This document shows, one piece after another, positions 592-23,474 of a stretch of DNA of 64,000 nucleotides (position 1 is the stretch's first letter; each line of letters starts with the position of its first letter). The position numbers were made by a program, and so were the translations under genes. This DNA is from Balneolales bacterium (GTDB taxonomy: Bacteria > Bacteroidota > Rhodothermia > Balneolales > Natronogracilivirgulaceae), in assembly GCA_007132975.1 (NCBI GenBank), contig SLNO01000024.1:1-64000 (forward strand). The letters run 5' to 3'. The notes beneath the pieces are model-generated. The model was not told the origin of the DNA, ran no database searches, and worked only from the letters and a program-made list of their open reading frames with translations.

Positions 592-848
592 ATAATGCGC
601 TAGTGCTGAAGACGCTGATGGGCAGTTCTGCTTTCCGCATCCAAGAGTTTACCTATATACCGGGAGAACAATCACGGAAACATCAAACCATGTTGCAATT
701 GCAATTCAAGATAACAAAGGAGCCTGTAATAAGCATCTTGCTCCAGTAGCAATTTAAAAAACGAACGATGTCCGGGAGTGGGGGAATTCAAGTGTATTAA
801 TAGAATTTAGTGCAAGGATGAGGTTGCCTCGCTTAAATGTATTGGAAT
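592..848. other. Divergent intergenic region
   Basis: This gap separates the leftward MNT/HEPN pair from the rightward copper-uptake operon. It is AT-rich. I see no convincing coding frame or hairpin until the palindromic site that starts at 849. Confidence 0.4.
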
Positions 849-874
849 AAAGAGTCTTTTATCCTATATTAAAA
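849..874 (+). promoter_or_regulatory. Candidate Rrf2-type operator in front of the copper-uptake operon
   Basis: The site reads AAGAGTCTTTTATCCTATAT in its central part and matches the reverse complement of the site upstream of the rrf2 gene (11249-11274) at 21 of 26 positions. Its core is TCTTTTA-TCC-TATATTA, an imperfect 7-3-7 inverted repeat. It ends only a few bases before the start codon at 877/880, so it must overlap the promoter or transcription start. Assignment to the Rrf2 protein of this island is inference from its also lying in front of the regulator gene and the nos genes. Confidence 0.55.
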
Positions 875-879
875 TCGTG

Positions 880-1245
880 ATGAAATCGATCCGGGTATTC
901 ATATTGCTTTTCTCGTTTCTGACGGGCACAATCCAGCCGGTGCTGCCGATGCTGGAATACCACCTGTTCAAGGATTACATCACCGAAAACCTTTGCGAGG
1001 AACGCAGGCTTGAGGTTTCCGACTGCGAAGGCATGTGCTACCTGAGAAATCAGCTCAAGGATCACGAGGAAACGCGGAACGACATGCCGGCCATGACGGG
1101 AGAATACTATCCGGGTACCATTTTGTGTGATGGCGCGAAGGATTTCACCCTGTTCCCTGAAGACAGGCAGCTTTTCACCGGTTTGGCCCATGCTGTTGCC
1201 GACCACTTGAGCACTGTGGACACCCCCCCTCCTGAAGGTCACTGA
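880..1245 (+). CDS. Small secreted cysteine-containing protein of copper/TonB loci
   Basis: This protein of about 120 residues has an N-terminal hydrophobic signal or anchor (about residues 4-23) followed by a short domain with the pattern C-EERRLEVSD-C-EGM-C-YLRNQL. I recall similar small proteins (pattern C..C.G.C.L..QL) next to TonB receptors and copper genes in Bacteroidetes, but know no assigned function. The first possible start is GTG at 877; ATG at 880 is preferred. It is followed by the YtkA-like lipoprotein and the copper receptor on the same strand, and a candidate operator abuts its start. A periplasmic metal-binding or redox role is a guess. Confidence 0.6.
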   Translation: MKSIRVFILLFSFLTGTIQPVLPMLEYHLFKDYITENLCEERRLEVSDCEGMCYLRNQLKDHEETRNDMPAMTGEYYPGTILCDGAKDFTLFPEDRQLFTGLAHAVADHLSTVDTPPPEGH

Positions 1246-1326
1246 GCCTGTTTTGCGCTTTTATTCATAAAAGGGCAAACACATCCACTATTCCACATTC
1301 CCTAGACAAAACTCAGTGGCCAAATT

Positions 1327-2136
1327 ATGTTCACATTCAAAACACTGCGCCTCAGCGGACTGCTGTTCCTGGCCCTCGCTGCGGCCGTATCCTGCAACTC
1401 TTCGGACGACGAAACCGGTCTGTTCAACGAACCGGACCTTTACAAACTCGGTGAATTCACGGCAGACGGGGTGACCGTCGCCGCCTACTCGCCGGCTCCA
1501 CCCGCCGTGGGTTTTCAGCACATCTTTTTCGAGGTGCACGAGGACGAGGTGCTGGTGGAGCGACCCGAGATTACGTTCATGCCCATCATGCACATGGAAC
1601 ACCACTCGCACGCATCCCCGCATCAGTCACCTCCCGGTGAAAGGGATCCGGACTTCGGTCTGTTCCGCGGATGGACCATCTTCACCATGCCCAGCGGCAT
1701 GATGGGGAACTGGGAGCTGGCCGTAACAGTACAGGACCCGGATTCGCCGGAACGCGAGATCGAGGGCGTGATCAATGTCGAAATAGCGGAATCGGCCATG
1801 GTCCGGACGTTCCAGGCCGGCAATGGAGAGCGCTATGTCCTTACACTGGTGCAACCGGACGATCCGAAAACCGGCCTCAACGACCTGGTCGTGGCCCTGC
1901 ACCACCGCGAGACCATGATGCATTTCCCGCCGGTCACGGGCGCCGCCATGGATTTCGAACCCTGGATGCCCTCCATGGATCACGGGTCCAGCAACAATGT
2001 GGATCCGGTCCATGAATCGGACGGCTTCTACCGCGGAAAGGTCAATTTCAACATGACCGGCGACTGGGAGCTGCGGTTTGACATCCACCAAAGCGATGAA
2101 CACCTCGGCAACGTCGTTTTTGACATTGATTTCTGA
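1327..2136 (+). CDS. YtkA/FixH-like Met/His-rich lipoprotein, putative periplasmic copper binder
   Basis: This is a 269-residue lipoprotein: hydrophobic signal, then AAAVSC as lipobox (Cys about residue 23). Two tandem beta-sandwich repeats resembling the YtkA-like domain follow (about 40-150 and 160-268). Both contain a GNWEL or GDWEL strand and a Met/His-rich loop (MPIMHMEHHSHASPH in the first, METMMH-like and MPSMDHG in the second). Such loops are typical of Cu(I) sites. The gene lies 22 bp ahead of the copper TonB receptor, so a role in taking copper from the receptor is likely. The fold is assigned by pattern only. Confidence 0.6.
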   Translation: MFTFKTLRLSGLLFLALAAAVSCNSSDDETGLFNEPDLYKLGEFTADGVTVAAYSPAPPAVGFQHIFFEVHEDEVLVERPEITFMPIMHMEHHSHASPHQSPPGERDPDFGLFRGWTIFTMPSGMMGNWELAVTVQDPDSPEREIEGVINVEIAESAMVRTFQAGNGERYVLTLVQPDDPKTGLNDLVVALHHRETMMHFPPVTGAAMDFEPWMPSMDHGSSNNVDPVHESDGFYRGKVNFNMTGDWELRFDIHQSDEHLGNVVFDIDF

Positions 2137-2166
2137 TCACCGGAATGCACGAGTGAGGTGCGAACC

Positions 2167-4668
2167 ATGAAGAATCGAACATCGATACGAGAAAACCAAA
2201 CAGCCGATTCGGGTGGATGCGGCCCCGGGTCCTATCGGATTGCCACGGGCCGGTCACAAGCTTTGCCAATCGGGGTGGCGACGATGTTGGCCCTTGTGGC
2301 GCTGCTGCTGATCGCTCCGCCTGTACAGTCGTCCGGCAAACCGGGGTTTTCACACCAATTCGAAATTCCGGCAGATTCGACACAGGCCAAAATGGCCGTC
2401 CTTGCCGGCGAAAAGGCAACATCAAATCGGGAAGGGTCTGTCAACAAGCCTGCCATGTGCTGCAGCATTGACTCGTTGCGGTTGCGAGGAGAAGTGCGGG
2501 ACCGGGAAACCGGCCGGCCGCTCTCCGGAGCGCACGTAATAGTCAGGGAGGCGCCGTGCTGTTCCACCCGAAAGCAGACAGGCACCGTGACAGGGGCCGA
2601 CGGCAGTTTTGCCCTGGCACTGGACGAGGCAGCACGCCACATTCTCATCACCCATGTCGGTTATCGGACGAAAAGGGTGGATGGGGCATCGTTGTGGGAC
2701 GAGGCGCCGATCTTCCTGGAACCGGTTACGGTCTTCAGCGAGGACATTCTGATTACGGCGGGACGGCTGCCCGGGGGCTACACGGGATTGTACCGCGACG
2801 CGCGTACCCGTCCGGTCGAAGACCATCTGTCCCATATCCCGGGCATGGACCTGGTCTCACGGGCCAATTTCGCTAAGGATCCGGTCATCCGCGGACAGCG
2901 TGACGGCCGCATCACGGTCACCATTGATGGCATGCGCATGACGCCTGCGTGCGTGGATGGCATGGATCCGCTCACCGCATATATTGAACCCGACAACCTG
3001 CAGGCCGTTGATATTAGCCGGGGGCAGGATGCCCGTGAAGGAGGAGCGTCCGGCACAGGCGGATCGGTCAACTTTGCCATGGCGCGGCCGGTGCTGAATA
3101 CGGGCACATCGGCAACCCTGGAATCGGGGTACCACTCCGTGAGCTCGCAGCACCTGATGCAGGGCGGTGTGTCGCACGGCTCTGATCGGTGGGCATTCCG
3201 GTTTTCAGGCACCTACCGCAACGCCGGCGACTTCCGGACGGGCTCCGGCAGTTTCCGTTCGAGCTCAGCTGACAGGGTCGAAGGTTCCGGGCTTGAAAAA
3301 GGCAACATTTACAGCGCTCTGCTCGTGCGTCCCGATGATGACCATACCCTTTCCCTGCGTTATATCGGGGATTTCGCCGGTTTCATCGGCTACCCGCGCC
3401 TGCTCATGGACACCCGTCGCGCTGACGCCCACATCGCCGGACTGGAACACCTCTGGGAACGGCCGGGAGCCCGCATCCACACGATACGCACCGATGTGTA
3501 CATGAACCGGGTCACGCACTGGATGGATGATTACGGCCGGGATGTCACCCGGCGGGATGTGATGCCGGACATGTTCATGCCGATGTACGGCGAGACCGTG
3601 ACGGCCGGAGTTGCCACAGAGTTGGATGCTTCGTCCGGCAGCCGCACCCTGCAGCTTCGGCTGGAAGCATGGAACGTCGAGGCGTTTGCGGACATGCTCA
3701 TGGAACATGTGGATCCCGGTGTGCGGGACATGTACCTGGTGAACCTGGGGGATGTCTCCCAGCGAAATGCCCTGGCGGCAGTGCGTTACCGCCGCTATCT
3801 GGATGGCGGATGGACCCTGGGCGGGCGCCTCCAGCTGGAGGGATCGCTGAGCAGGATCCGTGAGGAGAGCGCTGTTGCCACTTACAAAGCGGAGTACCCG
3901 GATATGACAACCCTGGAACCGGCGGTTTTCGGCTACATCGCCGCGTTGCAGACCGAAAAAGTGCTTCGATCAGGCCTTTCCGGCGGTGTCCGTGTCTCAC
4001 ACGGCACCCGGCTCCCCGATCACCTTGAGCGGTACGGCTACTACATCTACCAGCCGATGGACGGGTTTTTCTATATCGGAAATCCGGAGCTTGAGCCGGA
4101 GCGCAGCTCACAGGCCGAGGGATTCCTTACCCTTGGGGATGACCGCTCGCGCTGGAGCGGACACGCCTCGGTATGGGTCAACCGCATGGACCGTTACATT
4201 GCCGGGCGGCGGACCGACGACCTGTTCAAACGCTATGACAACATGGGCCGGGCCGAGCTGACCGGGTTTGAAATTGAGCTGGACCTGAGGGTTTCGGACC
4301 GCTGGCGTACCGGCGGGGCCGCATCCAGAGTCATTGGACAGCATCTGGCCCTGAATGAACCGCTGCCCATGATTCCGCCGCTCAAGGGGCACGGTTATCT
4401 GCGCATGGAGTCACAAAGGATTTCCCTGGAAGGGCGCATTCGCTGGGCGGCGGCGCAGGACCGGATTGCGTCGGCCAACAGCCTGGAGACAAGGACTTCT
4501 GGCCATGCCCTGTTCGACCTGCACATGAGCGCGCGACTGACAGACCACGTGCGTTTTCGCGGCGGGTTGGAGAACATCGGGAACCGCCATTACGTCGACC
4601 ATCTAAGCGTTAACGAACTGCCGGGGACAGGCAGGAACATCTATGTCTCCCTCAGACTGACGTATTGA
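2167..4668 (+). CDS. TonB-dependent outer-membrane copper receptor (OprC/NosA-like)
   Basis: About 833 residues: signal, a carboxypeptidase-regulatory-like N-domain (about 105-190), plug (about 195-305) and a 22-strand-type barrel ending in the aromatic Tyr of LRLTY. The plug holds CVDGM (Cys 265, Met 269 counting from the GTG at 2158) and the barrel holds HWM (His 454, Met 456). This matches the CxxxM plus HxM copper site described for Pseudomonas OprC. The N-domain also has two CC pairs (MCCS and PCCS), unusual for this class. The ATG at 2167, 9 bp after GAGTGAGG, is preferred to the GTG at 2158; either way the hydrophobic signal starts unusually late (about residue 40). Copper import for NosZ is inferred. 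Confidence 0.8.
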   Translation: MKNRTSIRENQTADSGGCGPGSYRIATGRSQALPIGVATMLALVALLLIAPPVQSSGKPGFSHQFEIPADSTQAKMAVLAGEKATSNREGSVNKPAMCCSIDSLRLRGEVRDRETGRPLSGAHVIVREAPCCSTRKQTGTVTGADGSFALALDEAARHILITHVGYRTKRVDGASLWDEAPIFLEPVTVFSEDILITAGRLPGGYTGLYRDARTRPVEDHLSHIPGMDLVSRANFAKDPVIRGQRDGRITVTIDGMRMTPACVDGMDPLTAYIEPDNLQAVDISRGQDAREGGASGTGGSVNFAMARPVLNTGTSATLESGYHSVSSQHLMQGGVSHGSDRWAFRFSGTYRNAGDFRTGSGSFRSSSADRVEGSGLEKGNIYSALLVRPDDDHTLSLRYIGDFAGFIGYPRLLMDTRRADAHIAGLEHLWERPGARIHTIRTDVYMNRVTHWMDDYGRDVTRRDVMPDMFMPMYGETVTAGVATELDASSGSRTLQLRLEAWNVEAFADMLMEHVDPGVRDMYLVNLGDVSQRNALAAVRYRRYLDGGWTLGGRLQLEGSLSRIREESAVATYKAEYPDMTTLEPAVFGYIAALQTEKVLRSGLSGGVRVSHGTRLPDHLERYGYYIYQPMDGFFYIGNPELEPERSSQAEGFLTLGDDRSRWSGHASVWVNRMDRYIAGRRTDDLFKRYDNMGRAELTGFEIELDLRVSDRWRTGGAASRVIGQHLALNEPLPMIPPLKGHGYLRMESQRISLEGRIRWAAAQDRIASANSLETRTSGHALFDLHMSARLTDHVRFRGGLENIGNRHYVDHLSVNELPGTGRNIYVSLRLTY

Positions 4669-4676
4669 TTTACGAT

Positions 4677-4756
4677 CCGGGCAGAAGACGACCAACCGTA
4701 ACTTCCGCCCGGGAAACGGCTCTCCGGGCCGGGCACAATCCCTGCAGGCTGCCCGG
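4677..4756. terminator. Inverted CCGGGC/GCCCGG repeats between convergent genes
   Basis: Two consecutive hairpins can form between the copper receptor and the convergent ric gene: CCGGGC at 4677-4682 with GCCCGG at 4707-4712, and CCGGGC at 4724-4729 with GCCCGG at 4751-4756. There is no long T-run, so a bidirectional terminator is only a possibility. Confidence 0.3.
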
Positions 4757-4787
4757 AAAACGCCGGGCCAGGCCGCACCCCGCATCC

Positions 4788-5513
4788 TCAGGCAATCAGG
4801 GCCTGTGCCTTGCGGAACAGAATGTTGTTCTCAAGGTGCACGTGCTTGTGCAGATTCTCCTCAAAGCCGGCCAGGTTCTGATACAGGATGCGGTAGGTGG
4901 TGCACGCTTCCGGCGGCGGGGTGAAATCATTGCTAAGGTGGCGGATCTGTGCCATGACCTCTCCGGCATGTTCATGGTCCGACTCCAAGCCGTCAAGTTC
5001 GGCCTGCAGCTGCTCCCTGAGCTGGTCGTCGAGGGGCTGGCCCTCTGCCCGCAGCCGGGAGGCCTTTTTGATCAGGGGGAAAACGACCGATTCTTCGGCT
5101 TCCAGGTGCTGGAGCAGATCCTGGATCAGCCCGTAGAAAGCATGGAATATGGATACGTTCTCCGGATGCCGCTCGCCGTGCACTTTGGCAACTTTCTGCG
5201 AATAAGCCGCAATTTCATTGGATTTTGAGCGGACAAAACGATGATGTGTGTTCTCGATATAGTCGATCAGAAAGGCGGGGTCCCACTCGTGGTAATTATC
5301 AGAAGAACCGGTGGATGCGGCCCCGGCAAGATCCGCAATCTGCTGCACGACAACGTCCAGCGGCGCCTGCTTCTTTTCACAGGCCTCCTGCAGGCTGATG
5401 CCGCCGCCGCAGCAGAAATCGATGCCGTATTGCCGGAGTACTCCGGCTGCGTGGTAATTCCAGGTGACAATGTCACCAACCTTTTGTTGGGATAATGATT
5501 CGGGATATATCAT
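4788..5513 (-). CDS. ric: Di-iron Fe-S cluster repair protein (RIC/ScdA/YtfE family)
   Basis: This 241-residue cytoplasmic protein repairs Fe-S clusters damaged by nitric oxide or oxidants. The N-terminal ScdA_N/DUF542 domain (about 1-60) shows the hallmark FCCGGG. The C-terminal hemerythrin-like four-helix domain (about 80-235) carries the expected His/Glu ligands in YIENTHHRF, KVHGERH, EAEESVVFP, DHEHAG and HKHVHLENN. It is transcribed convergently to the copper operon and lies beside a SufR-like regulator and nrfHA, as expected for nitrosative-stress defence. A weak copy of the island palindrome lies 23-44 bp upstream. Confidence 0.9.
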   Translation of the reverse strand: MIYPESLSQQKVGDIVTWNYHAAGVLRQYGIDFCCGGGISLQEACEKKQAPLDVVVQQIADLAGAASTGSSDNYHEWDPAFLIDYIENTHHRFVRSKSNEIAAYSQKVAKVHGERHPENVSIFHAFYGLIQDLLQHLEAEESVVFPLIKKASRLRAEGQPLDDQLREQLQAELDGLESDHEHAGEVMAQIRHLSNDFTPPPEACTTYRILYQNLAGFEENLHKHVHLENNILFRKAQALIA

Positions 5514-5535
5514 GGGTGCTCAGGTGTTTTGGTTA

Positions 5536-5557
5536 TTAATTAAGATTAAAATGTCTG
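5536..5557 (-). promoter_or_regulatory. Weak candidate copy of the island operator upstream of ric
   Basis: On the minus strand the site reads CATTTTAATCTTAATTAA with a small TTAA-TC-TTAA palindrome. It agrees with the site before the cytochrome c-nosZ genes at 15 of 22 positions without gaps. The region is AT-rich, so chance is a real alternative. Confidence 0.25.
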
Positions 5558-5620
5558 AAATAAGATTATGGATATGTTCCGCCGATGGATTTGGTCTTCA
5601 GGGAAGTTTGTCAGGTTGGA

Positions 5621-6397
5621 TCAAGTGTCGGACGTCTGACCAGGCTGAATTGACTTTCCGATGCGATAAGTGCAGGAGTCGCCGCCATCGGGAATGAAGG
5701 ACGTCCGTGTCACTTTCTGTCCGAATACCTGCTCGTAGAACCGGGCTTCGAGCCGGCAGGGCAGGCTGGTTTCACGGATCACGGACTTGAACGGGCAGTT
5801 GCATTCCCGGACAATCAGCGTATTGTCGGTTTCGTCGAAGTGGATTTCGGGCATGAACCCCTCTGCTTCCAGCAGGTCTGAGAGGGCTTTCAGGCCGGGT
5901 GTCAACGGTCCGCCATCTTCCGGTTCCGCCTCGTTGGACACGGCAGCAGCCTGCATCAGCTCGCAGGCCCTGGCGGCACGCTTGTTCCAGAAAGATTCAA
6001 AAAAAGCCTCAAGAAGATGCTGTTTCCCCTCATCCCGCAAATACCGGATCAGATCGCCCAGCAGCTCGCGCTCCTCCGAAGGGAAACGTGCATCACCTTC
6101 GCGGGTAAGCCGGTACTGCAGGGCCGGTCGCCCCGGTCCGTTCCGTCTGTGGCTCCTGCGGACAAGTCCGTCGCGTTCGAGCAGGGCGAGATGCTCACGG
6201 AGCGTTGTCCGGGCAAGGCCGGTACGTCCAGCGAGCTGATCCATATCGGCAGCGCCAAGGCGCTTGATGCATTCTAGTATTTGGGATTTGGAGTCGGATG
6301 TAGCCACGTCAGGTATGGGACTGCCCGATTGGTGGGTTTTGCAAGTATCTGTGCTGTAACTGGAACCTATGATAGCTATAGCAGAATCCAATGTCAA
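5621..6397 (-). CDS. SufR-like winged-helix Fe-S transcriptional regulator
   Basis: 258 residues. An N-terminal winged helix-turn-helix (about 35-100: LAGRTGLARTTLREHLALLE) is followed by a C-terminal domain with ECNCPFKSVIRE, LPCRLE and GGDSCTYRI. The Cys pattern CxCPF...C...C is that of SufR-type regulators, which bind an Fe-S cluster and repress suf genes. No suf gene is visible here; the neighbours are ric (107 bp downstream, same strand) and nrfHA (divergent, sharing a 221-bp intergenic region). A sensor of NO or iron status controlling ric and/or nrf is a reasonable inference. The first 30 residues look poorly conserved, so the true start may be internal. Confidence 0.7.
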   Translation of the reverse strand: MTLDSAIAIIGSSYSTDTCKTHQSGSPIPDVATSDSKSQILECIKRLGAADMDQLAGRTGLARTTLREHLALLERDGLVRRSHRRNGPGRPALQYRLTREGDARFPSEERELLGDLIRYLRDEGKQHLLEAFFESFWNKRAARACELMQAAAVSNEAEPEDGGPLTPGLKALSDLLEAEGFMPEIHFDETDNTLIVRECNCPFKSVIRETSLPCRLEARFYEQVFGQKVTRTSFIPDGGDSCTYRIGKSIQPGQTSDT

Positions 6398-6618
6398 TAA
6401 AATCGGTATAAACCGTTTTTTCGCTGTAATCCATTCATTTATACTGTTTTTAAGTTGCGCTTATTCGGCCTGTTTAATAGATTTGTTCTATAAAATATAT
6501 TGATCGGACTTATTGTTTTTCCAGAACAGGTTCAGGCGTTAAAGTTATTTCTGCAAGTGGAAGGTACAAACCCGGCAAGCGACACTATTGATATTGCCGC
6601 AACACAAACTCTGTCCAG

Positions 6619-7206
6619 ATGAATAGGGGCACCAAAATTATCCGCTGGCTTCTGCCACCCGCCCATTGGCGCCTACCGGTGATTCTCCTTTTGGGAGTGC
6701 TGGTTGGCCTTTTTTTCTATGCTTTTTATGTGTCCAATGCCGCCAGCTATCTGTCTGATTCGCCGCAGACATGCGTGAACTGCCATGTGATGGCGCCGCA
6801 CTATACGACCTGGTTCCACAGTTCGCACCGTGAGCATGCCACGTGCAACGATTGCCACGTCCCCCAGGACAATATTTTTCGCCACTATTATTTCAAGGCC
6901 CAGGACGGCGTGCGCCACGCATACATCTTCACGATGCGCGAGGAGCCCTTTGTGATCCGCATCCACGAGGCCGGACAGCAGGTGGTCCAGGAAAACTGCA
7001 AACGATGCCACGAACACACGAATTTTATGGTCAGCGCCTTTGATGCCACGCTTCAAACGGCCAAGGCCGGAGAGCACAAGCTGTGCTGGGACTGCCACCG
7101 GGAAGTGCCGCATGGAGCAGTGACCAGCTCGGCAAGCGTGCCTTATACCCACGTGCCGCTTCCACAGGCGCCCGTGCCGGAGTGGCTGCGGAGATTGATA
7201 GAATAA
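6619..7206 (+). CDS. nrfH: Cytochrome c nitrite reductase small subunit NrfH
   Basis: NrfH belongs to the NapC/NirT family; it takes electrons from menaquinol and passes them to NrfA at the periplasmic face. The 195-residue protein has one N-terminal membrane anchor (about 18-40) and four c-heme motifs: CVNCH, CNDCH, CKRCH and CWDCH. The first is followed by VMAPHYTTW, giving the Met typical of heme 1 in NrfH. It lies 83 bp upstream of nrfA and is divergent from the SufR-like gene. Confidence 0.95.
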   Translation: MNRGTKIIRWLLPPAHWRLPVILLLGVLVGLFFYAFYVSNAASYLSDSPQTCVNCHVMAPHYTTWFHSSHREHATCNDCHVPQDNIFRHYYFKAQDGVRHAYIFTMREEPFVIRIHEAGQQVVQENCKRCHEHTNFMVSAFDATLQTAKAGEHKLCWDCHREVPHGAVTSSASVPYTHVPLPQAPVPEWLRRLIE

Positions 7207-7289
7207 ATTGAAACGGCATCTGCCCGGAACCACATCAGGCTACCGGACGATGCCCGACCAGGCAACAGAAATCCAATGATTTATAACAC

Positions 7290-8807
7290 ATGAAAACGCT
7301 CGGAAAACGCATTGAAGAAAAACCCTGGATCGGCTGGGTGGTATTCCTCATCACTGTAGTGGTGGTATTTCTGGCCGGACTGTTCACCTACACCATTGTG
7401 GAGCGGCGGACCGAAGCGCAGTTTGTCTTCCAGCCGGTGAAGGACCTGCATCCCCTTGAACCAAGGCTGGAGGTCTGGGGCGAGGCGTTTCCGCGCCAGT
7501 TCAACACCTACAACCAGATGGCCGATACCACATTCCGCAGTGAGTTCCTGGGATCCACTCGCCTGGATCTGCTGGAAAAGAACCCGCGGCTTGTGATACT
7601 TTTTGCCGGCTTTGCATTCGCGACGGACTACAACCTTGCCCGCGGACACTACTATTCGGTCACCGACGTCCACGAAACCCTGCGCACCGGAGCGCCCATG
7701 AAAGCGGGGGAAGGTCCTATGCCGGCCACATGCTGGAGCTGCAAAAGCTCGGATGTCCCACGGCTGATGGCCGAGATGGGTGACGACGAATTCTATGCCG
7801 CCCGATGGTCGGAAGTGGGTCATGAAGTGGTAAATCCTATTGGATGTGTCAACTGTCATGATCCCCAGACCATGAACCTGCGTATCTCGCAGCCCGCACT
7901 TGTGGAGGCGTTCGAGCGTCAGGGACGTGACGTAACCAAAGCGACCCACCAGGAGATGCGTTCGCTCACATGCGCCCAGTGCCATGTGGAATATTACTTC
8001 GGCAGCGGCAACAAGCTGATATTCCCTTGGGACCGCGGACTGAAGGCTGAGGAGGTTGAGGAGTACAAGGACAACATCGAGTTCGCCGACTGGGTGCATC
8101 CGCTCAGCCGCACACGCATGCTCAAGGCACAGCATCCCGACTATGAAATTTTCAAGCTTGGGATCCATGCCCAGCGCGGTGTTTCATGCGCAGATTGCCA
8201 CATGCCCTACCGGACCGAAGGTGGAGTGAAGTACACGGACCACCGGGTGCAGAATCCGCTGAATAACGTGGCCAATGCCTGCCAAACCTGCCACCGTCAG
8301 AGCGAGGCGGAACTGGTGCGCAATGTGGTTTCCCGTCAGCGTGACGTGTACGATGTACGCGAGAAGCTGGAAATTGCCCTTGTCAACGCACATCTGGAGG
8401 CCGAGTTCGTCTGGAATCTTGGGGCGACCGAAGATCAGATGGCCCCGGTATTGCAGCACATTCGGACCGGGCAGTGGCTATGGGATTACGGTGCGGCCAG
8501 CCACGGAGGTGCCTTCCACGCACCCCAGGAGATGATGCGGATGTTCGGAAATGGGGTCAACCACGCCCAGGAAGCGCGCCTTGAACTGGCCCGTATCGCC
8601 GCAAGATTGGGGCATTCGGATCCCATACCCATACCTGACGTTTCCACCAAGGCAAAAGCCCAGGCCTATCTGGGAATCGACCTGGAGCAGCGTCAGCGTG
8701 AGAAAAACGAATTCCTGCGGATCGTGGTCCCGGAATGGCTGCAACGCGCCGATGAGCGCCATCGACAGTGGGACTCCGGCGAACGGGATATCGTCCCTTC
8801 ACGGTGA
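7290..8807 (+). CDS. nrfA: Pentaheme cytochrome c nitrite reductase NrfA (ammonia-forming)
   Basis: NrfA reduces nitrite to ammonium with six electrons in the periplasm. In its 505 residues the catalytic heme motif CWSCK lies at 148-152, followed by four CxxCH motifs at about 186 (CVNCH), 228 (CAQCH), 300 (CADCH) and 331 (CQTCH). The lysine-ligated CxxCK is diagnostic. An N-terminal hydrophobic segment (about 15-38) may act as an uncleaved anchor or signal. The gene sits in an nrfHA-ccsB-ccsA operon, so the maturation genes next door probably serve the CxxCK heme too. Confidence 0.97.
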   Translation: MKTLGKRIEEKPWIGWVVFLITVVVVFLAGLFTYTIVERRTEAQFVFQPVKDLHPLEPRLEVWGEAFPRQFNTYNQMADTTFRSEFLGSTRLDLLEKNPRLVILFAGFAFATDYNLARGHYYSVTDVHETLRTGAPMKAGEGPMPATCWSCKSSDVPRLMAEMGDDEFYAARWSEVGHEVVNPIGCVNCHDPQTMNLRISQPALVEAFERQGRDVTKATHQEMRSLTCAQCHVEYYFGSGNKLIFPWDRGLKAEEVEEYKDNIEFADWVHPLSRTRMLKAQHPDYEIFKLGIHAQRGVSCADCHMPYRTEGGVKYTDHRVQNPLNNVANACQTCHRQSEAELVRNVVSRQRDVYDVREKLEIALVNAHLEAEFVWNLGATEDQMAPVLQHIRTGQWLWDYGAASHGGAFHAPQEMMRMFGNGVNHAQEARLELARIAARLGHSDPIPIPDVSTKAKAQAYLGIDLEQRQREKNEFLRIVVPEWLQRADERHRQWDSGERDIVPSR

Positions 8808-8945
8808 CAATTGATCAGTTTAGCAATCATACAGCAATACAGATAGCAAGGGACGCAATCGCACCCCGGGACTGACATCATATTATTTACAAACAGTTAA
8901 AATCAGGCGCTACTGCCTTGAGCAGGAAGCCTGCATAATTTGCAG

Positions 8946-10346
8946 ATGGAACCATTTACATCCAACGGAAGAAAAAACAGAATTAAACCCAGAAAAACGG
9001 TTTGGCTTTTCCCATGGGGTTATACAGAGGCCTTTCTTATCGCAGCCGCTCTGCTGCTGGTCGGGTTCGCCCTGGAATGGGTCACCCCCGGCGACGGATT
9101 GTCCGCGCCCTCATGGCCCTGGAACGGGGTTATCTGGGTGGTGCTTTTGCTCATTCCGCTCCTGCTGCATATAACCATGCCCCAAAACCCGATTGTCCGG
9201 TGGATGAGCCAGGTCCCGGCAAGCATGGGTGCCATCGCAGCGGTGACGTTTTCGGTATTGTTGATGGGACTTTTCCTGCAGGGTCAGCCTTCCGGTATCG
9301 GTTGGATGGACCGGCTGGGTCTTTCCCGCATGGCATCAAGCTGGCCTTTTCTGCTGAGCATATCCTGGTTCCTTTTTGTCTTGGTCATGACCACTATCCG
9401 GCGAAGCATCCCGTTCCGGGGACGCAACATCGGTTTCCTGCTGAACCACCTCGGTCTATGGATCGTCATAGCAGGCGGGATCCTCGGCAGCGGCGACCTG
9501 CTAAGGGTTACCATGACGTTGTCGGAAGGACAAACCGTCTGGTACGGCACCGATCGTGACGGCCGCACGGTGGAGCTGCCCCTTGCGCTGGAGCTGCACC
9601 GTTTCCACATGGAGGAATATCCACCCAAAATGGGTGTGTTGAGTCATGAAACGGGCGGCCTGATCATCCGCGGCGAGCAGGATCTGGTGGAAATCGAGCG
9701 AGGCAGGAAGGGGCACATGTCTGGGTGGGATTATGAGATCCTCCAGTTTTTTGCCGAATCGGCGCGCATCGAGGACCGGTTTGAGCCGCTCCACGACATC
9801 GGTGCGGCCCCGGCGGCGCAGATCAGGGCCGTTCATGCCGAGCGGGGCGACACGGTCACCGGCTGGATCACCTGCGGCAGTTTCAACATGAAGCACCAGT
9901 TCCTGGAGTTGGAGGAGGGCAGGGCCATGGCCATGACGGTGCCGCAATCCAAACGGTATATGTCGCTTGCCCGGCTGTACACTCAAAGCGGTGACAACCG
10001 CATGATCGACATCGAAGTGAACCATCCCTACTCGGCCGAGGGCTGGAAGCTCTACCAGTTCAGCTACGATGACCGGTTCGGCAAGTGGTCGCCCATCAGC
10101 ATAATCGAGGCGATTCGTGATCCCTGGCTTCCGGTGGTCTACACCGGGTTCATCATGATGCTGCTGGGAGCGGTCTATCTGTTCTGGCTCGGGAAGGATA
10201 TCGGCACCGAACTGACGCAGAATACAGACGAGGTGGATAGCGCCCCGGATGCGCAGGACAGCCCAGGATCATCCGGCAGCGCAACCAATGAAAAAGAAGT
10301 ATCCGGCCAGCCAGCCGAAGCCAGACTCAAAACGGAGATATCATGA
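8946..10346 (+). CDS. Cytochrome c biogenesis protein ResB/CcsB-like
   Basis: 466 residues with about four transmembrane helices near the N-terminus (about 23-165), a large periplasmic domain (about 180-400) and a C-terminal helix (about 405-425). This layout is that of ResB/CcsB in system II cytochrome c maturation, which delivers heme with CcsA. The stop overlaps the start of ccsA by 4 bp (ATGA), so translation is coupled. A TTG at 8940 is possible, but the ATG at 8946 is preferred. The C-terminus is an acidic, Ser/Gln-rich tail. Wolinella and relatives have a fused CcsBA dedicated to NrfA; here the two halves remain separate genes. Confidence 0.85.
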   Translation: MEPFTSNGRKNRIKPRKTVWLFPWGYTEAFLIAAALLLVGFALEWVTPGDGLSAPSWPWNGVIWVVLLLIPLLLHITMPQNPIVRWMSQVPASMGAIAAVTFSVLLMGLFLQGQPSGIGWMDRLGLSRMASSWPFLLSISWFLFVLVMTTIRRSIPFRGRNIGFLLNHLGLWIVIAGGILGSGDLLRVTMTLSEGQTVWYGTDRDGRTVELPLALELHRFHMEEYPPKMGVLSHETGGLIIRGEQDLVEIERGRKGHMSGWDYEILQFFAESARIEDRFEPLHDIGAAPAAQIRAVHAERGDTVTGWITCGSFNMKHQFLELEEGRAMAMTVPQSKRYMSLARLYTQSGDNRMIDIEVNHPYSAEGWKLYQFSYDDRFGKWSPISIIEAIRDPWLPVVYTGFIMMLLGAVYLFWLGKDIGTELTQNTDEVDSAPDAQDSPGSSGSATNEKEVSGQPAEARLKTEIS

Positions 10347-11137
10347 CCTGGACTGTATTTCCCACCGTATTTGCCCTATCGACCGCACTCTGGGGCGCCG
10401 CCGTTGCGGTGGTGTACCTGGCCCGGCTGAAGCCCAGAGCAGAGATATTGGGCCACCTGTTTTTCTGGGCCGGAATGGCAGTGATGACCATCTTCATCCT
10501 TGGCCTCTGGGGAAGCCTGGATCGTCCGCCCATGCGCACACTTGGTGAAACTCGTCTATGGTACGGTTTCTTCATGCCGCTTATCGGTTACCTCACATGG
10601 CGTCGCTGGCAGCTTGCATGGGTGCTTGCGTACAGCATTCTGATGGCTGTTGTATTCCTGGGGATCAATGTGCTTAATCCGGATGTTCACGACCGCGCCC
10701 TCATGCCGGCGTTGCAAAGCGTCTGGTTTGTTCCCCACGTGATCGTTTACATCTTCGCCTACGCGCTGCTGGCCGTCTCGGCCATCGTAGCCGTGAAGGC
10801 GCTCTATGAGGGGCGCAGCGGACAATTCCGGTTGAAAACACTCACGCTGGCCGACAATATGGTCTACATTGGTTTTGCATTCCTGACCCTTGGCCTGATC
10901 TTCGGCGCCATATGGGGCAAGGAGGCCTGGGGGCACTACTGGAACTGGGATCCCAAGGAAGTATGGGCGCTGCTGACGTGGATCGTCTACCTTGCGTACA
11001 TACATATCAGGGCGCACAGGTCAGATCTGGTGCGTCCGGCCATGTGGACCCTGGCACTGGCTTTTGTCGTTCTGATGGTCTGCTGGTTTGGCGTTAACTA
11101 TCTGCCATCGGCGCAGGGGAGCATCCACACCTACTGA
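10343..11137 (+). CDS. ccsA: Cytochrome c biogenesis protein CcsA (ResC/CcmC-like)
   Basis: 264 residues, about eight membrane helices. The tryptophan-rich heme-handling motif is seen as WGHYWNWDPKEVWALLTW (about 192-209), diagnostic for the CcsA/CcmC/CcmF superfamily. Conserved His residues flank it (FVPHVIVY and YIHIRAH). With the upstream CcsB it should form the system II heme lyase that attaches heme to NrfH, NrfA and the nos cytochrome. A strong hairpin and T-run follow, closing the nrf operon. Confidence 0.9.
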   Translation: MTWTVFPTVFALSTALWGAAVAVVYLARLKPRAEILGHLFFWAGMAVMTIFILGLWGSLDRPPMRTLGETRLWYGFFMPLIGYLTWRRWQLAWVLAYSILMAVVFLGINVLNPDVHDRALMPALQSVWFVPHVIVYIFAYALLAVSAIVAVKALYEGRSGQFRLKTLTLADNMVYIGFAFLTLGLIFGAIWGKEAWGHYWNWDPKEVWALLTWIVYLAYIHIRAHRSDLVRPAMWTLALAFVVLMVCWFGVNYLPSAQGSIHTY

Positions 11138-11178
11138 CAGAAACAGTCCGTATTGGAATGGGCTGTGCCCGTTCAGTT

Positions 11179-11217
11179 GCGGCGCAACATGTTGAGGCCG
11201 CATCCGCAGCATTTTTT
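11179..11217 (+). terminator. Terminator of the nrfHA-ccsBA operon
   Basis: The hairpin GCGGC-G-CAAC-AT-GTTG-AG-GCCGC (11179-11201) is followed after ten bases by a run of six T (11212-11217) and more T-rich sequence. It sits 42 bp after the ccsA stop and just before the rrf2 promoter. Confidence 0.55.
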
Positions 11218-11227
11218 CATTTTTTTC

Positions 11228-11268
11228 TTGACATGTTCATTCGGTCTATCTTATTTTAGGATAAAATA
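11228..11268 (+). promoter_or_regulatory. rrf2 promoter with perfect palindromic operator
   Basis: A TTGACA hexamer (11228-11233) is followed, 17 bp on, by TTATTT as a possible -10. Overlapping it is the perfect 7-3-7 inverted repeat TATTTTAGGATAAAATA (11252-11268). The ATG of rrf2 is at 11285, so binding would block transcription; autoregulation is the simplest reading. Similar sites lie at 849-874 and 11761-11783. Confidence 0.55.
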
Positions 11269-11284
11269 CTCTTAAATATGAATT

Positions 11285-11764
11285 ATGCATTTTTCCAAGG
11301 CCAGCACATACGGTATCAGATCGGTTGCATTCATGGCGGCGAGACAAGACCGGGAGATGATCTCCATCCGCGAGCTGAGCCGGGAGCTGGACATACCCCC
11401 GGCGTTTCTGACCAAGGTGATGCAGCGGCTGGCATCCCGCAATATTGTGCAGACGATGCGGGGCTACGGCGGCGGCGTGGCGCTTGGAAAACCGGCCAGC
11501 GAAATCACGCTCAAGGAAATCATTACCGCAGTTGAAGGGGAAGAAGCCTTTCATCCATTCGGTCTGGGCATACCGAAAGAACAGATGGAGAAAACACCCG
11601 TTTTTTTCAAAAAATGGACCAATCTGAATGACAGCATCGACCTCTTTTTTTCCCACACCAAACTCTCCGAACTATGTCCGGCCGAAACCCCCGGAGCCGC
11701 CGGTCTGTCAGGAACTTCAGATGAAGGGCATGTCGCAGAAGGGGATGCTTCCTTGCGACCTTAA
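11285..11764 (+). CDS. Rrf2-family transcriptional regulator without the cluster cysteines
   Basis: 159 residues. The winged helix-turn-helix is clear (about 1-80: YGIRSVAFMA, LDIPPAFLTKVMQRL, GGGVALGKP). The region that in NsrR/IscR-type members carries three Cys reads FHPFGLGIPKEQ...PVFFKKW and has none; the only Cys is in SELCP near residue 129. Rrf2 proteins near nos or NO genes usually sense NO through an Fe-S cluster, so this one must sense something else, use another ligand, or act with a partner. It is divergently palindromic at its own promoter and directly precedes the cytochrome c-nosZ operon. The C-terminal 30 residues look disordered. Confidence 0.85.
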   Translation: MHFSKASTYGIRSVAFMAARQDREMISIRELSRELDIPPAFLTKVMQRLASRNIVQTMRGYGGGVALGKPASEITLKEIITAVEGEEAFHPFGLGIPKEQMEKTPVFFKKWTNLNDSIDLFFSHTKLSELCPAETPGAAGLSGTSDEGHVAEGDASLRP

Positions 11765-11783
11765 ATAAGATAAAATACACTTA
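11761..11783 (-). promoter_or_regulatory. Candidate operator upstream of the cytochrome c-nosZ genes
   Basis: Read on the minus strand the site is TAAGTGTATTTTATCTTATT plus three bases and matches the rrf2 promoter site at 17 of 23 positions, with a core TATTTTA-TCT-TATTTAA. It overlaps the rrf2 stop codon and lies about 30 bp before the next start codon, where a promoter would be expected. Confidence 0.5.
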
Positions 11784-11813
11784 TATCCATAACCAATCAC
11801 TACGGAACTAATC

Positions 11814-12293
11814 ATGCAGCAAGTAACAAGAATCCTGCTCCTGCTCATTCTAGCCCTTGTGTATACCGGTTGCGGCAACGGGGAAGAACGCGAATCCGCA
11901 CCCGCCAGGGATGAAGCGCCGGAGCTGACCCAATTTGAACTGGAACACGGAATCGGGCCGGTCACCGAAAGACTGGATATCGGAGATATTAATGTGGAAC
12001 GCGCCCGCCGGGGAGCAGAAGTTTTCGACCTGCGTTGCACGGCCTGCCACCGCATGGGCCGCCGTTTCGTAGGCCCGCCGCTGGGCGAGATCACCGAGGC
12101 AAGATCGCACGAGTTCATTATCAACTTTATCCTCAATCCCGAGGAAATGACCAACCGCCACCCGGTGGGACAGGCACTGCTTCAGGAGTACATGACCATC
12201 ATGCCCTACCAGAACGTATCCAAGGAGCAGGCGATAGAGATTGTCGACTTTTTGCGCTATTACGCTGAAACAGGCGAAGATTTGAGGGATTAA
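11814..12293 (+). CDS. Monoheme c-type cytochrome lipoprotein of the nos cluster
   Basis: 159 residues. A short signal ends in the lipobox VYTGC (Cys about residue 19). A single CTACH heme motif lies at about 76-80 with a likely Met ligand in YMTIMPYQNV near residue 125, the arrangement of class I cytochrome c. It stands 33 bp ahead of nosZ in the same operon. Clade II nos clusters commonly encode such cytochromes (nosC in Wolinella), so it probably brings electrons to the CuA site of NosZ. The name nosC is not assigned because the family is broad. Confidence 0.85.
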   Translation: MQQVTRILLLLILALVYTGCGNGEERESAPARDEAPELTQFELEHGIGPVTERLDIGDINVERARRGAEVFDLRCTACHRMGRRFVGPPLGEITEARSHEFIINFILNPEEMTNRHPVGQALLQEYMTIMPYQNVSKEQAIEIVDFLRYYAETGEDLRD

Positions 12294-12326
12294 CCCACAA
12301 CTGAACAACCATTAACAATTCGAACC

Positions 12327-14297
12327 ATGGCACAACAAACAACCATTTGGAAAATAACATCATTGCTCCTGGGGCTGGGCCTGCTCGCGATGATCATGTA
12401 CGGATGTCCGTCCCAGACGGGTATGCTGGACACCCGTGAAGCCGCTCAAAAGGTGTACGTAGCACCGGGCGAATATGATGAGTATTACGCTTTCTTTTCG
12501 GGGGGATACAGCGGCCAGCTGAGCGTCTGGGGCCTGCCCTCTGCGCGCATGTTCCGCAATATTCCAGTCTTTTCACAGGATCCGGAATCGGGATACGGCT
12601 ACTCCGAAGAGACCAAGCCGCTGCTGATGACCAGCTACGGATTCATCCCGTGGGATGATTCGCACCATCCGGATTTCTCACACACGGACGGGATGCCTGA
12701 CGGACGCTGGATCTTCATCAACGGTAACAATACCCCTCGCGTCGCACGCATTGACCTGACCACTTTTGAAACGGTCGAGATCCTGGAGCTTCCCAACACG
12801 GGTGGCAACCACGCCTCCACCTTCGTTACCGAGAACACCGAGTACATTATCGGTGCCACCCGGTTCAGTATTCCCTATGAAATGGACAAGGATGTGTCGA
12901 TCGATTCCTACAAGGAAAACTTCGACGGATCTCTCAGCTTCATAGCTGTCGATCCCGAGTCCGGTGAAATGAGCATGGATTTCCAGATTATCATGCCTCC
13001 CTACCACTATGATCTGGGTCGCGCAGGCAAGGGTCCGTCCGCCGACTGGGCCTTTTTCACTACATACAACACCGAGCAGGCCCATACACTGCTGGAGATA
13101 TACGCTTCCGAATTTGACAAGGATTATGTAGTGGCCGTCAACTGGAGAAAGGCACAGGAGTATGTGCGCGAAGGGAGAGCACGCACCGTGCCGGCCAAAT
13201 ACTACCATAACCTGAAAGACAAGAATACCGGCATTGCCGTCTCCACGGTCCATGACGAGGTGCTGTTGCTTGATCCCAAAGATGCACCTGATATGATCTA
13301 TTTCATGCCTACACCAAAATCGCCGCATGGCGTGGATATCGATCCCACCGGTGAGTATATCGTTGCCGGCGGGAAGCTTGCCACCGTAATACCGGTGCAT
13401 TCCTTCAGCCGCATGCTGGAGGCCATCGGAAACGAGGCTTTTGAGGAGGTTATCAACGGTATTCCGGTGCTTGAATACGAAGCCACCATTATCGGTGAAG
13501 TGGAGAATCCGGGTCTTGGCCCTCTGCATACCGAGTTTGACGGCGATGGCAACGCATACACTTCGGTCTACATCTCCTCGGAAATCGTGAAGTGGTCGCT
13601 GGAAACCTTTGAGGTGACGGACCGCATCGATGCCTACTATTCGATTGGTCACCTGATGATCACCGGAGGGGACACCCCGAATCCGGACCGCAAATATATG
13701 GTCGGCCTTACCAAGACCGCGCGCGACCGGTTCCTGCCGACCGGACCGAAGCAGCTTCACCCCGCCCAGCTGTATGATATTTCGGGCGACCGAATGGAAC
13801 TGCTGCTTGATTTCCCGACAATTGGTGAACCGCACTACGCGCAGGCCATCCGGGCTGATATTATCAAGCCTAATGTAAAACAGATTTATGACCTGGATGA
13901 TAATAATCACCCGCATGCGGTCAAGCGTCCGCGCGATGCCCGTGTTGAACGTGACGGCGATGTGGTCAGGGTCTACATGACCAACATCAGAAGCCACTTT
14001 ACGCCGGACAATATCGAGGGCATCCGAGTAGGTGACACTGTCTATTTCCACCTGACCAATATCGAGCAGGACTGGGATATGGTGCACGGCTTTGCCATCA
14101 AAGGCGCCAACAGCGGAGAAGTGCTTATCGCTCCTGGTGAGACAAAGACCATCGTCTGGCATCCGCAGCGCACGGGTATCTATCCGTTCTATTGCACCGC
14201 ATTCTGCTCGGCGCTCCACCAGGAGATGCAGGGTTATGTACGGGTGTCTGCCGCAGACTCGAACGTCCCGCTGACATGGCGTACCGGAGATGAATAA
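12327..14297 (+). CDS. nosZ: Nitrous oxide reductase NosZ, clade II (Sec-type)
   Basis: NosZ reduces N2O to N2 in the periplasm. The 656-residue protein has a plain hydrophobic signal without a twin-arginine motif, ending near MYGC (possibly lipidated), as in clade II enzymes. An N-terminal seven-bladed propeller supplies the CuZ His ligands (DDSHHPDFSH, GGNHAS, PYHYDLG, KSPHG, GPLHTEF, KQLHP and GEPHY are visible). The cupredoxin CuA domain at the C-terminus has Cys 623, Cys 627, His 631 and Met 634 in CTAFCSALHQEM. The cytochrome c gene precedes it and the NosB-like gene follows, with a terminator-like hairpin between. Confidence 0.97.
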   Translation: MAQQTTIWKITSLLLGLGLLAMIMYGCPSQTGMLDTREAAQKVYVAPGEYDEYYAFFSGGYSGQLSVWGLPSARMFRNIPVFSQDPESGYGYSEETKPLLMTSYGFIPWDDSHHPDFSHTDGMPDGRWIFINGNNTPRVARIDLTTFETVEILELPNTGGNHASTFVTENTEYIIGATRFSIPYEMDKDVSIDSYKENFDGSLSFIAVDPESGEMSMDFQIIMPPYHYDLGRAGKGPSADWAFFTTYNTEQAHTLLEIYASEFDKDYVVAVNWRKAQEYVREGRARTVPAKYYHNLKDKNTGIAVSTVHDEVLLLDPKDAPDMIYFMPTPKSPHGVDIDPTGEYIVAGGKLATVIPVHSFSRMLEAIGNEAFEEVINGIPVLEYEATIIGEVENPGLGPLHTEFDGDGNAYTSVYISSEIVKWSLETFEVTDRIDAYYSIGHLMITGGDTPNPDRKYMVGLTKTARDRFLPTGPKQLHPAQLYDISGDRMELLLDFPTIGEPHYAQAIRADIIKPNVKQIYDLDDNNHPHAVKRPRDARVERDGDVVRVYMTNIRSHFTPDNIEGIRVGDTVYFHLTNIEQDWDMVHGFAIKGANSGEVLIAPGETKTIVWHPQRTGIYPFYCTAFCSALHQEMQGYVRVSAADSNVPLTWRTGDE

Positions 14298-14350
14298 CAA
14301 GTTTCCATTGAGGCCACTCAGGCTGAAAATGCATAACTGAGGTTAAAAAT

Positions 14351-14380
14351 GGGCAGGGCTGTGACAGGTCCTGCCCTTTT
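14351..14380 (+). terminator. Hairpin with T-run between nosZ and the NosB-like gene
   Basis: GGGCAGG (14351-14357) pairs perfectly with CCTGCCC (14370-14376) across a 12-base loop and is followed directly by TTTT. It is a textbook intrinsic terminator. As the genes after it belong to the same nos cluster, partial read-through would give more nosZ than maturation factors. Confidence 0.65.
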
Positions 14381-14411
14381 CAAAAGAAGAGTTCCGTAAG
14401 TAACCGTAAAG

Positions 14412-14990
14412 ATGAAGAAATCAACCCGACTTGGCCTTATCCTGGCCGCATTGCTGCTGATACCGGCGTACTTCACACCCATCTGGACTATCAAGCTGAC
14501 CGCACCGCAATACCCGGACGGGCTGGGAATGTATATCTGGATGAACGACATCACCGGCCATGAAAGGCACGATATCCGCAATATCAATATCCTGAATCAC
14601 TATGTAGGGATGAAAGAGATTGATCCGGATCTGGTCGGCACACTGGACATCATGCCCTGGGTGGTTGGCGGATTGATTACACTAGCGGTTGTCGCCGCCC
14701 TTGTCGGCAAGATCTGGCTCGCCTGGGTCTGGATCGTACTGTTTGTGGTGGCTGGTACGGCAGGCATGGTGGATTTCTACATGTGGGGCTATGACTACGG
14801 GCACGATCTGAATCCGCGTGCGGCCATTAAAGTGCCCGATATGAGCTACCAGCCGCCGTTGATCGGCAGGAAAACCCTGCTGAACATCACGGCCACATCC
14901 TGGCCCTACTGGGGCACGCTCTGGATCGGCCTGTCGCTGGCAGCCGGAACGGCAGTTACCGTCCGTGAATCGTTTTTCGGAAAAAAATAG
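14412..14990 (+). CDS. NosB-like integral membrane protein
   Basis: 192 residues with four predicted membrane helices (about 7-27, 78-98, 103-125, 160-182). Conserved stretches include PIWTIKLTAPQYPDG, WMNDITGHERHDI and ATSWPYWGTLWIGLSL. A membrane protein of unknown function (NosB) directly downstream of nosZ is a hallmark of clade II nos clusters; position and topology agree, but I assign it by context. A clear paralogue is encoded at 22735-23295. The His of TGH and the aromatic motifs are shared by both copies. Confidence 0.65.
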   Translation: MKKSTRLGLILAALLLIPAYFTPIWTIKLTAPQYPDGLGMYIWMNDITGHERHDIRNINILNHYVGMKEIDPDLVGTLDIMPWVVGGLITLAVVAALVGKIWLAWVWIVLFVVAGTAGMVDFYMWGYDYGHDLNPRAAIKVPDMSYQPPLIGRKTLLNITATSWPYWGTLWIGLSLAAGTAVTVRESFFGKK

Positions 14991-15095
14991 ATGGATGGAT
15001 GTTCTTGCTGGCGGGTTGCGGTGCAACACAGAACAAAAACGCAACGGCCGCGACAGCAAGGTCAGAACAATTTGGTAGAAATCAGAAAGAAGGAT

Positions 15096-15713
15096 ATGCA
15101 TACGAGTATCAACATATCAGTTATCCTAACAAAACTTGCGGCAGCGGCGCTGCTGCTGGTAGTCGCAATGGCATGCGGCAGGAATGATGGCCGGTCGGCG
15201 AGTAACAGTCCGGCATCGGTGGAGGCATCTTCCGCATCCATCCAGGCAGCACTTCATGACGCACCGGCGGACCTGTTCCGCACCGAAAGGCCCGTGTCGC
15301 ACTATTTCGGAAACCTGGAAGTCAGTCTGTACGGCGAGCACTGCGTCCACAGCGGCAAAGAGCTGAGAAGTCGCCGGTATGGCGCCGTGGCGCTGACGGA
15401 AGAGGGCTCGGTGCTGAGATTCCGCTCCGTGGAGAATCTGGTCTGGTACATGCAGGAAAAAGAACTCCAAAGTGAAGATTTTCAGGCTATTGGAATTGTG
15501 GATTTCATCACTGCCAGACGCCTAATGCAACCCGATAGACTGATGTTCCATCTGAGCAGGAACCTTCCGAGTCCGGGTGGATCCTGGGTAAGCGCGATGG
15601 ATCCGGATGCCGACCCGTCACTGCTCTATAACATCATGGAGGCCTATCCGGGCACACGACACTCCTGGGACGAAGTCCAGGCATTCCTCTCGGAGAAGCG
15701 CGGGGGCATTTGA
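15096..15713 (+). CDS. NosL-like lipoprotein with degenerate metal site
   Basis: 205 residues. The ATG at 15096 has a good ribosome-binding sequence (AAGAAGG) and begins a proper signal ending in VAMAC; the longer frame upstream lacks signal character. The body resembles NosL (a Cu(I)-binding chaperone lipoprotein for NosZ), with RRYGAVALTEEGSVLRFRSV and ENLVWYMQ matching the core. But where NosL has CxxCGM, this protein has EHCVHSGKEL, keeping only the first Cys. It may be a partner of the intact NosL encoded next, or a scaffold without its own copper site. Confidence 0.55.
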   Translation: MHTSINISVILTKLAAAALLLVVAMACGRNDGRSASNSPASVEASSASIQAALHDAPADLFRTERPVSHYFGNLEVSLYGEHCVHSGKELRSRRYGAVALTEEGSVLRFRSVENLVWYMQEKELQSEDFQAIGIVDFITARRLMQPDRLMFHLSRNLPSPGGSWVSAMDPDADPSLLYNIMEAYPGTRHSWDEVQAFLSEKRGGI

Positions 15714-15734
15714 CTTCCATTACGAACTTTATGT

Positions 15735-15765
15735 TATTAATAATATATAGCTTGTAATATTAATA
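15735..15765. promoter_or_regulatory. AT-rich inverted repeat upstream of nosL
   Basis: TATTAATAATA (15735-15745) faces TAATATTAATA (15755-15765), complementary at 10 of 11 positions with nine bases between. It fills the 60-bp gap before nosL and could be an operator or an internal promoter. It does not match the TATTTTA palindrome found elsewhere in the island. Confidence 0.35.
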
Positions 15766-15782
15766 TAGAACTAGTGAGACTT

Positions 15783-16325: not shown

Positions 16326-16348
16326 TTTTCAGTAAAAAGACCAGGCAG

Positions 16349-19427: not shown

Positions 19428-19541
19428 AGGCGGGAGAAGAAATAATGCTTCATCCCCCGCGCTGATTGACAGACCGGCAAGCAGCACCTGTGCTTGCAAA
19501 TGAAAGTACATTATTATCCAACCACTAAATGTAAAAATATT

Positions 19542-23428: not shown

Positions 23429-23445
23429 GTAAAATCATGTTTTAC
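23429..23445. promoter_or_regulatory. Perfect inverted repeat upstream of the subtilase gene
   Basis: GTAAAA-TCATG-TTTTAC is a perfect 6-5-6 palindrome 29 bp before the start codon, in an AT-rich promoter-like stretch. It may be an operator. Nothing else in the window has the same sequence. Confidence 0.3.
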
Positions 23446-23474
23446 GATAAGATATAATCAATAGATCAAATCCC

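Follow-up and report, generated by a model that had tools for sequence, protein, structure and literature searches.

A conserved inverted repeat before rrf2, cytochrome c-nosZ, ric and a putative copper operon in Balneolales is a candidate operator for an Rrf2-type repressor

The window, the first 64,000 nucleotides of contig C22 in a draft Balneolales genome (3.24 Mb, 88% complete), carries a putative copper operon, the Fe-S repair gene ric, a gene for an Rrf2-family regulator and a run of nos genes headed by a cytochrome c gene (Table 1). The putative copper operon begins with a gene for a 122-residue protein (cu122), homologues of which were found in 45 of 128 genomes of the order, and its gene order is kept in relatives. 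For the TonB-dependent receptor, the best of 10 models was that of the TonB-dependent copper receptors (TIGR01778), whose curated cut-off was not reached; this match, the neighbouring YtkA gene and the copper genes that share the element described below suggest that the receptor may transport copper.

Several other genes surround these features. A SufR-like regulator beside ric (5621-6397; TIGR02702, 65 bits, below the cut-off of 178.8) is kept next to ric in the related genomes G110, G116 and G124. The genes nrfHA, for an ammonifying nitrite reductase (nrfA was named by reading), and the clade II nos cluster are grouped with genes for ResB/CcsA-type cytochrome maturation (window 6619-8807 and 11814-19427). 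The nos cluster includes a small cupin gene (19494-19859) with a homologue divergent from ric in G110, and two similar-looking membrane proteins of 192 and 186 residues, neither with an NCBIfam match, are encoded in or after it (14412-14990 and 22735-23295).

Table 1. Positions of genes, promoter hexamers and putative operator copies in the window
Feature	Position	Strand	Details
Putative operator copy, copper operon	848..867	-	ATAGGATAAAAGACTCTTTA; between TTGGAA and TATATT hexamers; 4 mismatches
cu122, first gene of putative copper operon, 122 aa	877..1245	+	no Pfam/NCBIfam match
YtkA-domain protein	1327..2136	+	PF13115, 65.5 bits
TonB-dependent receptor	2158..4668	+	TIGR01778, 133.9 bits against a cut-off of 472.45
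ric (ytfE/scdA-type Fe-S repair di-iron protein)	4788..5513	-	TIGR03652, 228.5 bits over 204.7
Weak putative operator copy before ric	5540..5559	-	5 mismatches
rrf2 promoter hexamers	11228..11257	+	TTGACA-18-TATTTT, touching operator
Putative rrf2 operator	11256..11275	+	TTAGGATAAAATACTCTTAA; 1 mismatch to consensus
rrf2, Rrf2-family regulator without cluster cysteine triad	11285..11764	+	PF02082, 91.3 bits over 30
Putative cytochrome c-nosZ operator	11765..11784	+	ATAAGATAAAATACACTTAT; 3 mismatches; conserved in relatives
Cytochrome c, first gene of nos run	11814..12293	+	PF00034
nosZ, Sec-dependent, clade II type	12327..14297	+	TIGR04246, 890.4 bits over 625

Relatives were drawn from 128 genomes of the order Balneolales and from 20 genomes of the window's family, several of them incomplete (51-98%); a scan of genome contigs gave seven loci, all in Balneolales MAGs. 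Comparison of the regions upstream of nos-linked rrf2, cytochrome c, cu122 and ric revealed a cross-species footprint before each gene, with diverging bases on either side. What these regions share is an inverted repeat of 20 bp, TTAAGA-N8-TCTTAA, with the consensus TTAAGAYAAAATACTCTTAA, learned mainly from the upstream regions of relatives; its centre is constant and asymmetric. At up to 4 mismatches the window holds three sites, against a mean of 0.017 in 60 Markov simulations. A weaker site before ric, mentioned in a preliminary description of the window, was located at 5540-5559; its arms, TTAAGA/TCTGAA, depart from the repeat at one of 12 arm positions. One further weak match, with 6 mismatches, lies at 23438-23461 before a subtilase-like gene.

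The preliminary description had placed a shared palindromic site at 849-874, 11249-11274 and 11761-11783. Indeed, all three sites are present and, aligned anew, the first (on the reverse strand) and the third agree with the rrf2 site at 21 of 26 and 17 of 23 positions. The perfect 7-3-7 palindrome reported at rrf2, TATTTTATCCTAAAATA, is likewise exact at 11252-11268, and at up to 3 mismatches it has four matches in the window, two of them a single rrf2 position read on either strand, where shuffles gave 0.06 on average. As the shared element, however, this palindrome had to be given up, for at rrf2 it is half operator and half -10 hexamer. Its left arm varies across relatives as TATTTT, TATATT or TATAAT, like a -10 hexamer, whereas the right half and the downstream TCTTAA are constant, and it was therefore rejected as the operator. 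The conserved dyad is centred about 5 bp away.

The element lies at promoter positions before rrf2, cytochrome c-nosZ and the 877-4668 operon, as first described. It is kept at all nine nos-linked loci of the cysteine-less rrf2. A simple hexamer scan of the nine rrf2 loci paired the -10, which is TATAAT in four relatives, with TTGACA, TTGACT, TTGACC or TTGCTT 17-18 nt upstream in eight of them; the pair listed for G117 was TTGACA-16-TCTATT. At cu122, the same kind of scan placed the operator copy of the window within the spacer of TTGGAA-17-TATATT, and in G116 and G112 the copy lies between TGGATA and TATAAT or TATTAT. No clear hexamer pair was found by the scan at more distant cu122 homologues, nor convincing hexamers at the window cytochrome c gene. 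At cu122 (window 865-880), the likely -10 ends some 6-9 nt before the start codon, so close that the transcript would be leaderless. The overlap of the element with core promoters favours a repressor, and the element most likely acts in repression.

The asymmetric, conserved centre would also suit a promoter class, that is, an extended -10 or the site of some other activator, and the central TAAAAT could be the cytochrome c -10 in some relatives (TTGCAA-16-TAAAAT in G013, for example). Such a promoter class would have to accommodate an inverted repeat that is reversed at cu122, is preceded by a separate TATAAT at rrf2 and tracks the presence of rrf2, and we regard it as very unlikely in place of an Rrf2 operator.

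The rarity of the element was assessed in the whole 3.24-Mb host genome, where the consensus at up to 3 mismatches has four sites and the reversed control none. Two are the sites at rrf2 and cytochrome c-nosZ and two lie on contig C58 near a second Rrf2 gene, one adjacent to it and the other ahead of a gene resembling the DUF2249 gene of G112. The copper site, at 4 mismatches, lies beyond this cut-off and is not outstanding by itself in one genome. A looser pattern, composed with these sites in view, matched exactly five places, namely the four sites and the copper site, with one more at 2 mismatches; its backward control also gave six matches at up to 2 mismatches. The fourth-best core match of the genome (C80:15654) had no arms in its context and was taken as chance.

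Support for the copper site comes instead from conservation in relatives. Among the 30 genomes with the best-matching cu122 of the 45 that have it (29 loci after one too short was dropped), a site at up to 4 mismatches was found upstream at 16 loci and was lacking at 13, compared with 0/29 for an inside-gene control and 6/580 shuffles. Chance likeness to the rrf2 site in an A+T-rich promoter could account for 4 mismatches and for a backward control equally rich at up to 2 mismatches in the loose genome scan, but equivalent sites lie 12-22 nt before the start of the match in many cu122 homologues, usually in the same reversed orientation, with the element before the gene in G123 and G018 as well. 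Chance is a highly improbable source of the copper site.

Across the order, copies of the element stand before rrf2, cytochrome c-nosZ, the YtkA/TonB-receptor operon and ric. With T at the Y position and up to 3 mismatches, the consensus has 342 matches in the 128 genomes against 146 for the backward pattern; among the 18 genomes in which nothing matched the window Rrf2, the figures are 15 and 17. Counts at rrf2 and cytochrome c are not independent, since the consensus was learned partly from these same regions. At ric, tested in the best-matching 30 of the 84 genomes with the gene, a site at up to 4 mismatches was present upstream at 25 loci and absent from five, against 0/30 inside the gene and 0/600 shuffles.

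The element also precedes multicopper-oxidase or NirK-like genes in G116, G124, G127, G009, G021 and G036. The G116 protein has a Pfam Cu-oxidase domain; N-terminal pieces from G036 and G009 gave weaker or no matches. At a distance of 190-266 nt, the element precedes a gene of the plastocyanin/azurin family in G122 and, judged by sequence likeness, another in G123, where a radical-SAM gene has the element as well. In G110, a cupin gene is divergent from ric and the element stands at both. The nitrosative-stress and denitrification genes expected of an NsrR-type target set are thus represented by ric (25/30 loci) and by NirK-like genes. The link first drawn between rrf2, cytochrome c-nosZ and the 877-4668 operon stood, but the set is wider, taking in ric, NirK-like, cupredoxin and second rrf2 genes. 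Some matches stand before apparently unrelated genes, among them one divergent pair that we take to be an acyl-CoA synthetase and a tryptophanase gene, and no evident element was seen upstream of nrfH in the three genomes viewed. Two tandem copies precede cytochrome c-nosZ in G097 (L074 ~9570-9640, minus strand), and G116 has two nearby copies of ric (L063 13179-15354), the first with a 4-mismatch and the second with a 3-mismatch element.

Within the family, the element (2-9 copies) was found in all 11 genomes with nos-linked rrf2 and in none of the nine others (Fisher 6e-6), a comparison that partly counts the two sites of the nos locus itself and includes several incomplete genomes. This count was made with the first pattern (T at the Y position); when Y was allowed there, a single 3-mismatch match appeared in one of the nine, G111. 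In another, G120, nosZ is present where the contig begins, with rrf2 out of view.

The window Rrf2 reaches the cut-off of the Rrf2 family model TIGR00738 (93.1 bits over 73.3) and falls short of the NsrR (NF008240, 47.6 bits against 182) and IscR (TIGR02010, 49.5 bits against 207.55) equivalogs. Natural IscR has the cluster cysteines. Structures of IscR (PDB 4HF0-4HF2, 4CHU) are the best solved relatives of the window protein, which lies far below the IscR model cut-off; its own AlphaFold model has a mean pLDDT of 56. In an alignment of the window Rrf2 with its eight nearest nos-linked relatives, the three cluster-binding cysteines were found in none. These nine proteins group in a single clade (99/96) whose stem is long, and the tree tool warned of long branches. 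A search of 395 genomes of the phylum with their alignment, in a sample with few genomes of the window's family and cysteines read in part of the matches, gave the window protein at E 7e-88 and next, at 1.4e-33, a cysteine-bearing protein of G013.

Each of the nine genomes with the cysteine-less protein also encodes a second, C58-type Rrf2 with the triad. Upstream of C58-type genes, the arms were present at up to 2 mismatches in 10 of 13 regions; the exceptions were G124 (4 arm mismatches), G125 (3) and G119, whose region was seen in part. Random stretches, from source loci that include true sites, had such arms in 125 of 4000 cases. A C58-type Rrf2 without autoregulation through the element was considered and rejected, since the arms alone are present upstream, though the full consensus is absent in G109, G119 and G125. 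From the arms before 10 of the 13 genes, both paralogues probably read the same arms. A third Rrf2 lineage, with differently spaced cysteines, occurs at nos in G122 and G123 (L155, L160), and the element upstream of its rrf2 is full (0 mismatches) or near (4).

With a triad-bearing paralogue whose own promoter has the same arms, control by the local Rrf2 only stays putative. The C58 protein might, as an NsrR-like NO sensor, regulate all the sites, leaving the local Rrf2 as an accessory or decaying paralogue. It is found with its triad wherever the cysteine-less protein is, its promoter mostly carries the arms, and outside the family the nos-linked Rrf2 itself carries a C-x6-C-x5-C triad together with the full element. 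Genomes with only the C58 type (G109, G119, G125), however, lack the full element at 3 mismatches, and the cysteine-less protein is intact in nine genomes, sharing 59-88% identity with the window protein and a recognition helix (FLTK..QRL) that does not vary, which argues against decay. We therefore consider sole regulation by the C58 protein unlikely.

The element is probably the operator of an Rrf2-type repressor, through which the local Rrf2 is autoregulated and also represses cytochrome c-nosZ and the cu122 operon, with the signal arriving by way of the second Rrf2. A dimer of such a repressor would bind the arms TTAAGA and TCTTAA, 8 bp apart, and block RNA polymerase, beside the -10 at rrf2 and in the -35/-10 spacer at the copper operon; at cytochrome c-nosZ it would cover the likely core promoter. 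With the 11285-11764 protein as the common repressor of cytochrome c-nosZ and of the cu122-YtkA-TonB receptor operon, putative copper import and the copper enzyme NosZ would be derepressed together. Likely targets also include ric and, on contig C58, the DUF2249 and Rrf2 genes. The signal would most likely be NO or nitrosative stress and, because the local Rrf2 lacks the cluster cysteines, would probably enter through the cysteine-bearing second Rrf2, by competition or mixed dimers.

Some evidence weighs against this repressor model. The window copies at the copper operon (4 mismatches) and ric (5) are weak. Replacement of the three cysteines in Streptomyces NsrR leaves a protein unable to fit its operator DNA, according to the available excerpt of PMC9338935, and this speaks against DNA binding by the local Rrf2. 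In the same excerpt, the hyA operator is bound by cluster-free apo-IscR, so that a naturally cysteine-less Rrf2 might bind or might not. The retained recognition helix and operators speak for DNA binding by the cysteine-less Rrf2. More tentatively, within a single Balneolales family an NsrR-type repressor linked to nos may have lost its Fe-S sensor while keeping its operators, and may now be the cluster-free member of a two-protein switch whose other member, a cysteine-bearing paralogue, reads the same arms; the switch would set copper import, NosZ and Fe-S repair jointly.

The regulation of clade II nosZ has been little studied. Among biological sinks of N2O, the copper-dependent enzyme NosZ is the best known, and the conserved operator offers a ready test of whether copper import and N2O reduction lie in one switch. 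A natural cluster-less Rrf2 likewise tests how the family acts without its Fe-S sensor. Among the matches listed by full-text searches of open-licence papers, none described the element, an NsrR regulon in Balneolales or copper import as a target.

Among known systems, the NsrR regulons (PMC1274295, in excerpt) likewise join an Rrf2-family regulator to an inverted-repeat operator at promoters, with nirK, dnrN (a relative of ric) and, in one species, nos as targets. Their motif, gATGyAT-N5-ATrCATc, is by eye unlike TTAAGAYAAAATACTCTTAA, the excerpt names no copper-import operon, and the window Rrf2, unlike NsrR, lacks the cysteine triad. Genes for rrf2 and c-type cytochromes do occur in clade II nosZ clusters (PMC6264515), where the authors found the role of rrf2 hard to predict; the accessible portion of their text gives no operator or targets. 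Copper TonB receptors NosA/OprC and CrtA (PMC12914433, in excerpt; PMC8610252) tie outer-membrane copper uptake to a copper respiratory enzyme; the part of PMC12914433 at hand mentions no operator common to nosZ, and the window receptor lies below its model cut-off. In Thermus thermophilus, a local Rrf2 protein, NsrR, regulates denitrification genes in company with NsrS (ScdA domain) and NsrT (cupin) and has a palindromic site (PMC5748679, in excerpt); the element-bearing ric and cupin genes of G110 recall these Fe-S-repair and cupin partners. The Thermus regulator, as described there, carries three cysteines and is an activator as well as a repressor, unlike the repressor proposed here. An NsrR-like denitrification regulon is known in kind, and the Balneolales case differs in its candidate operator, its putative copper-import target and its cysteine-less candidate regulator.
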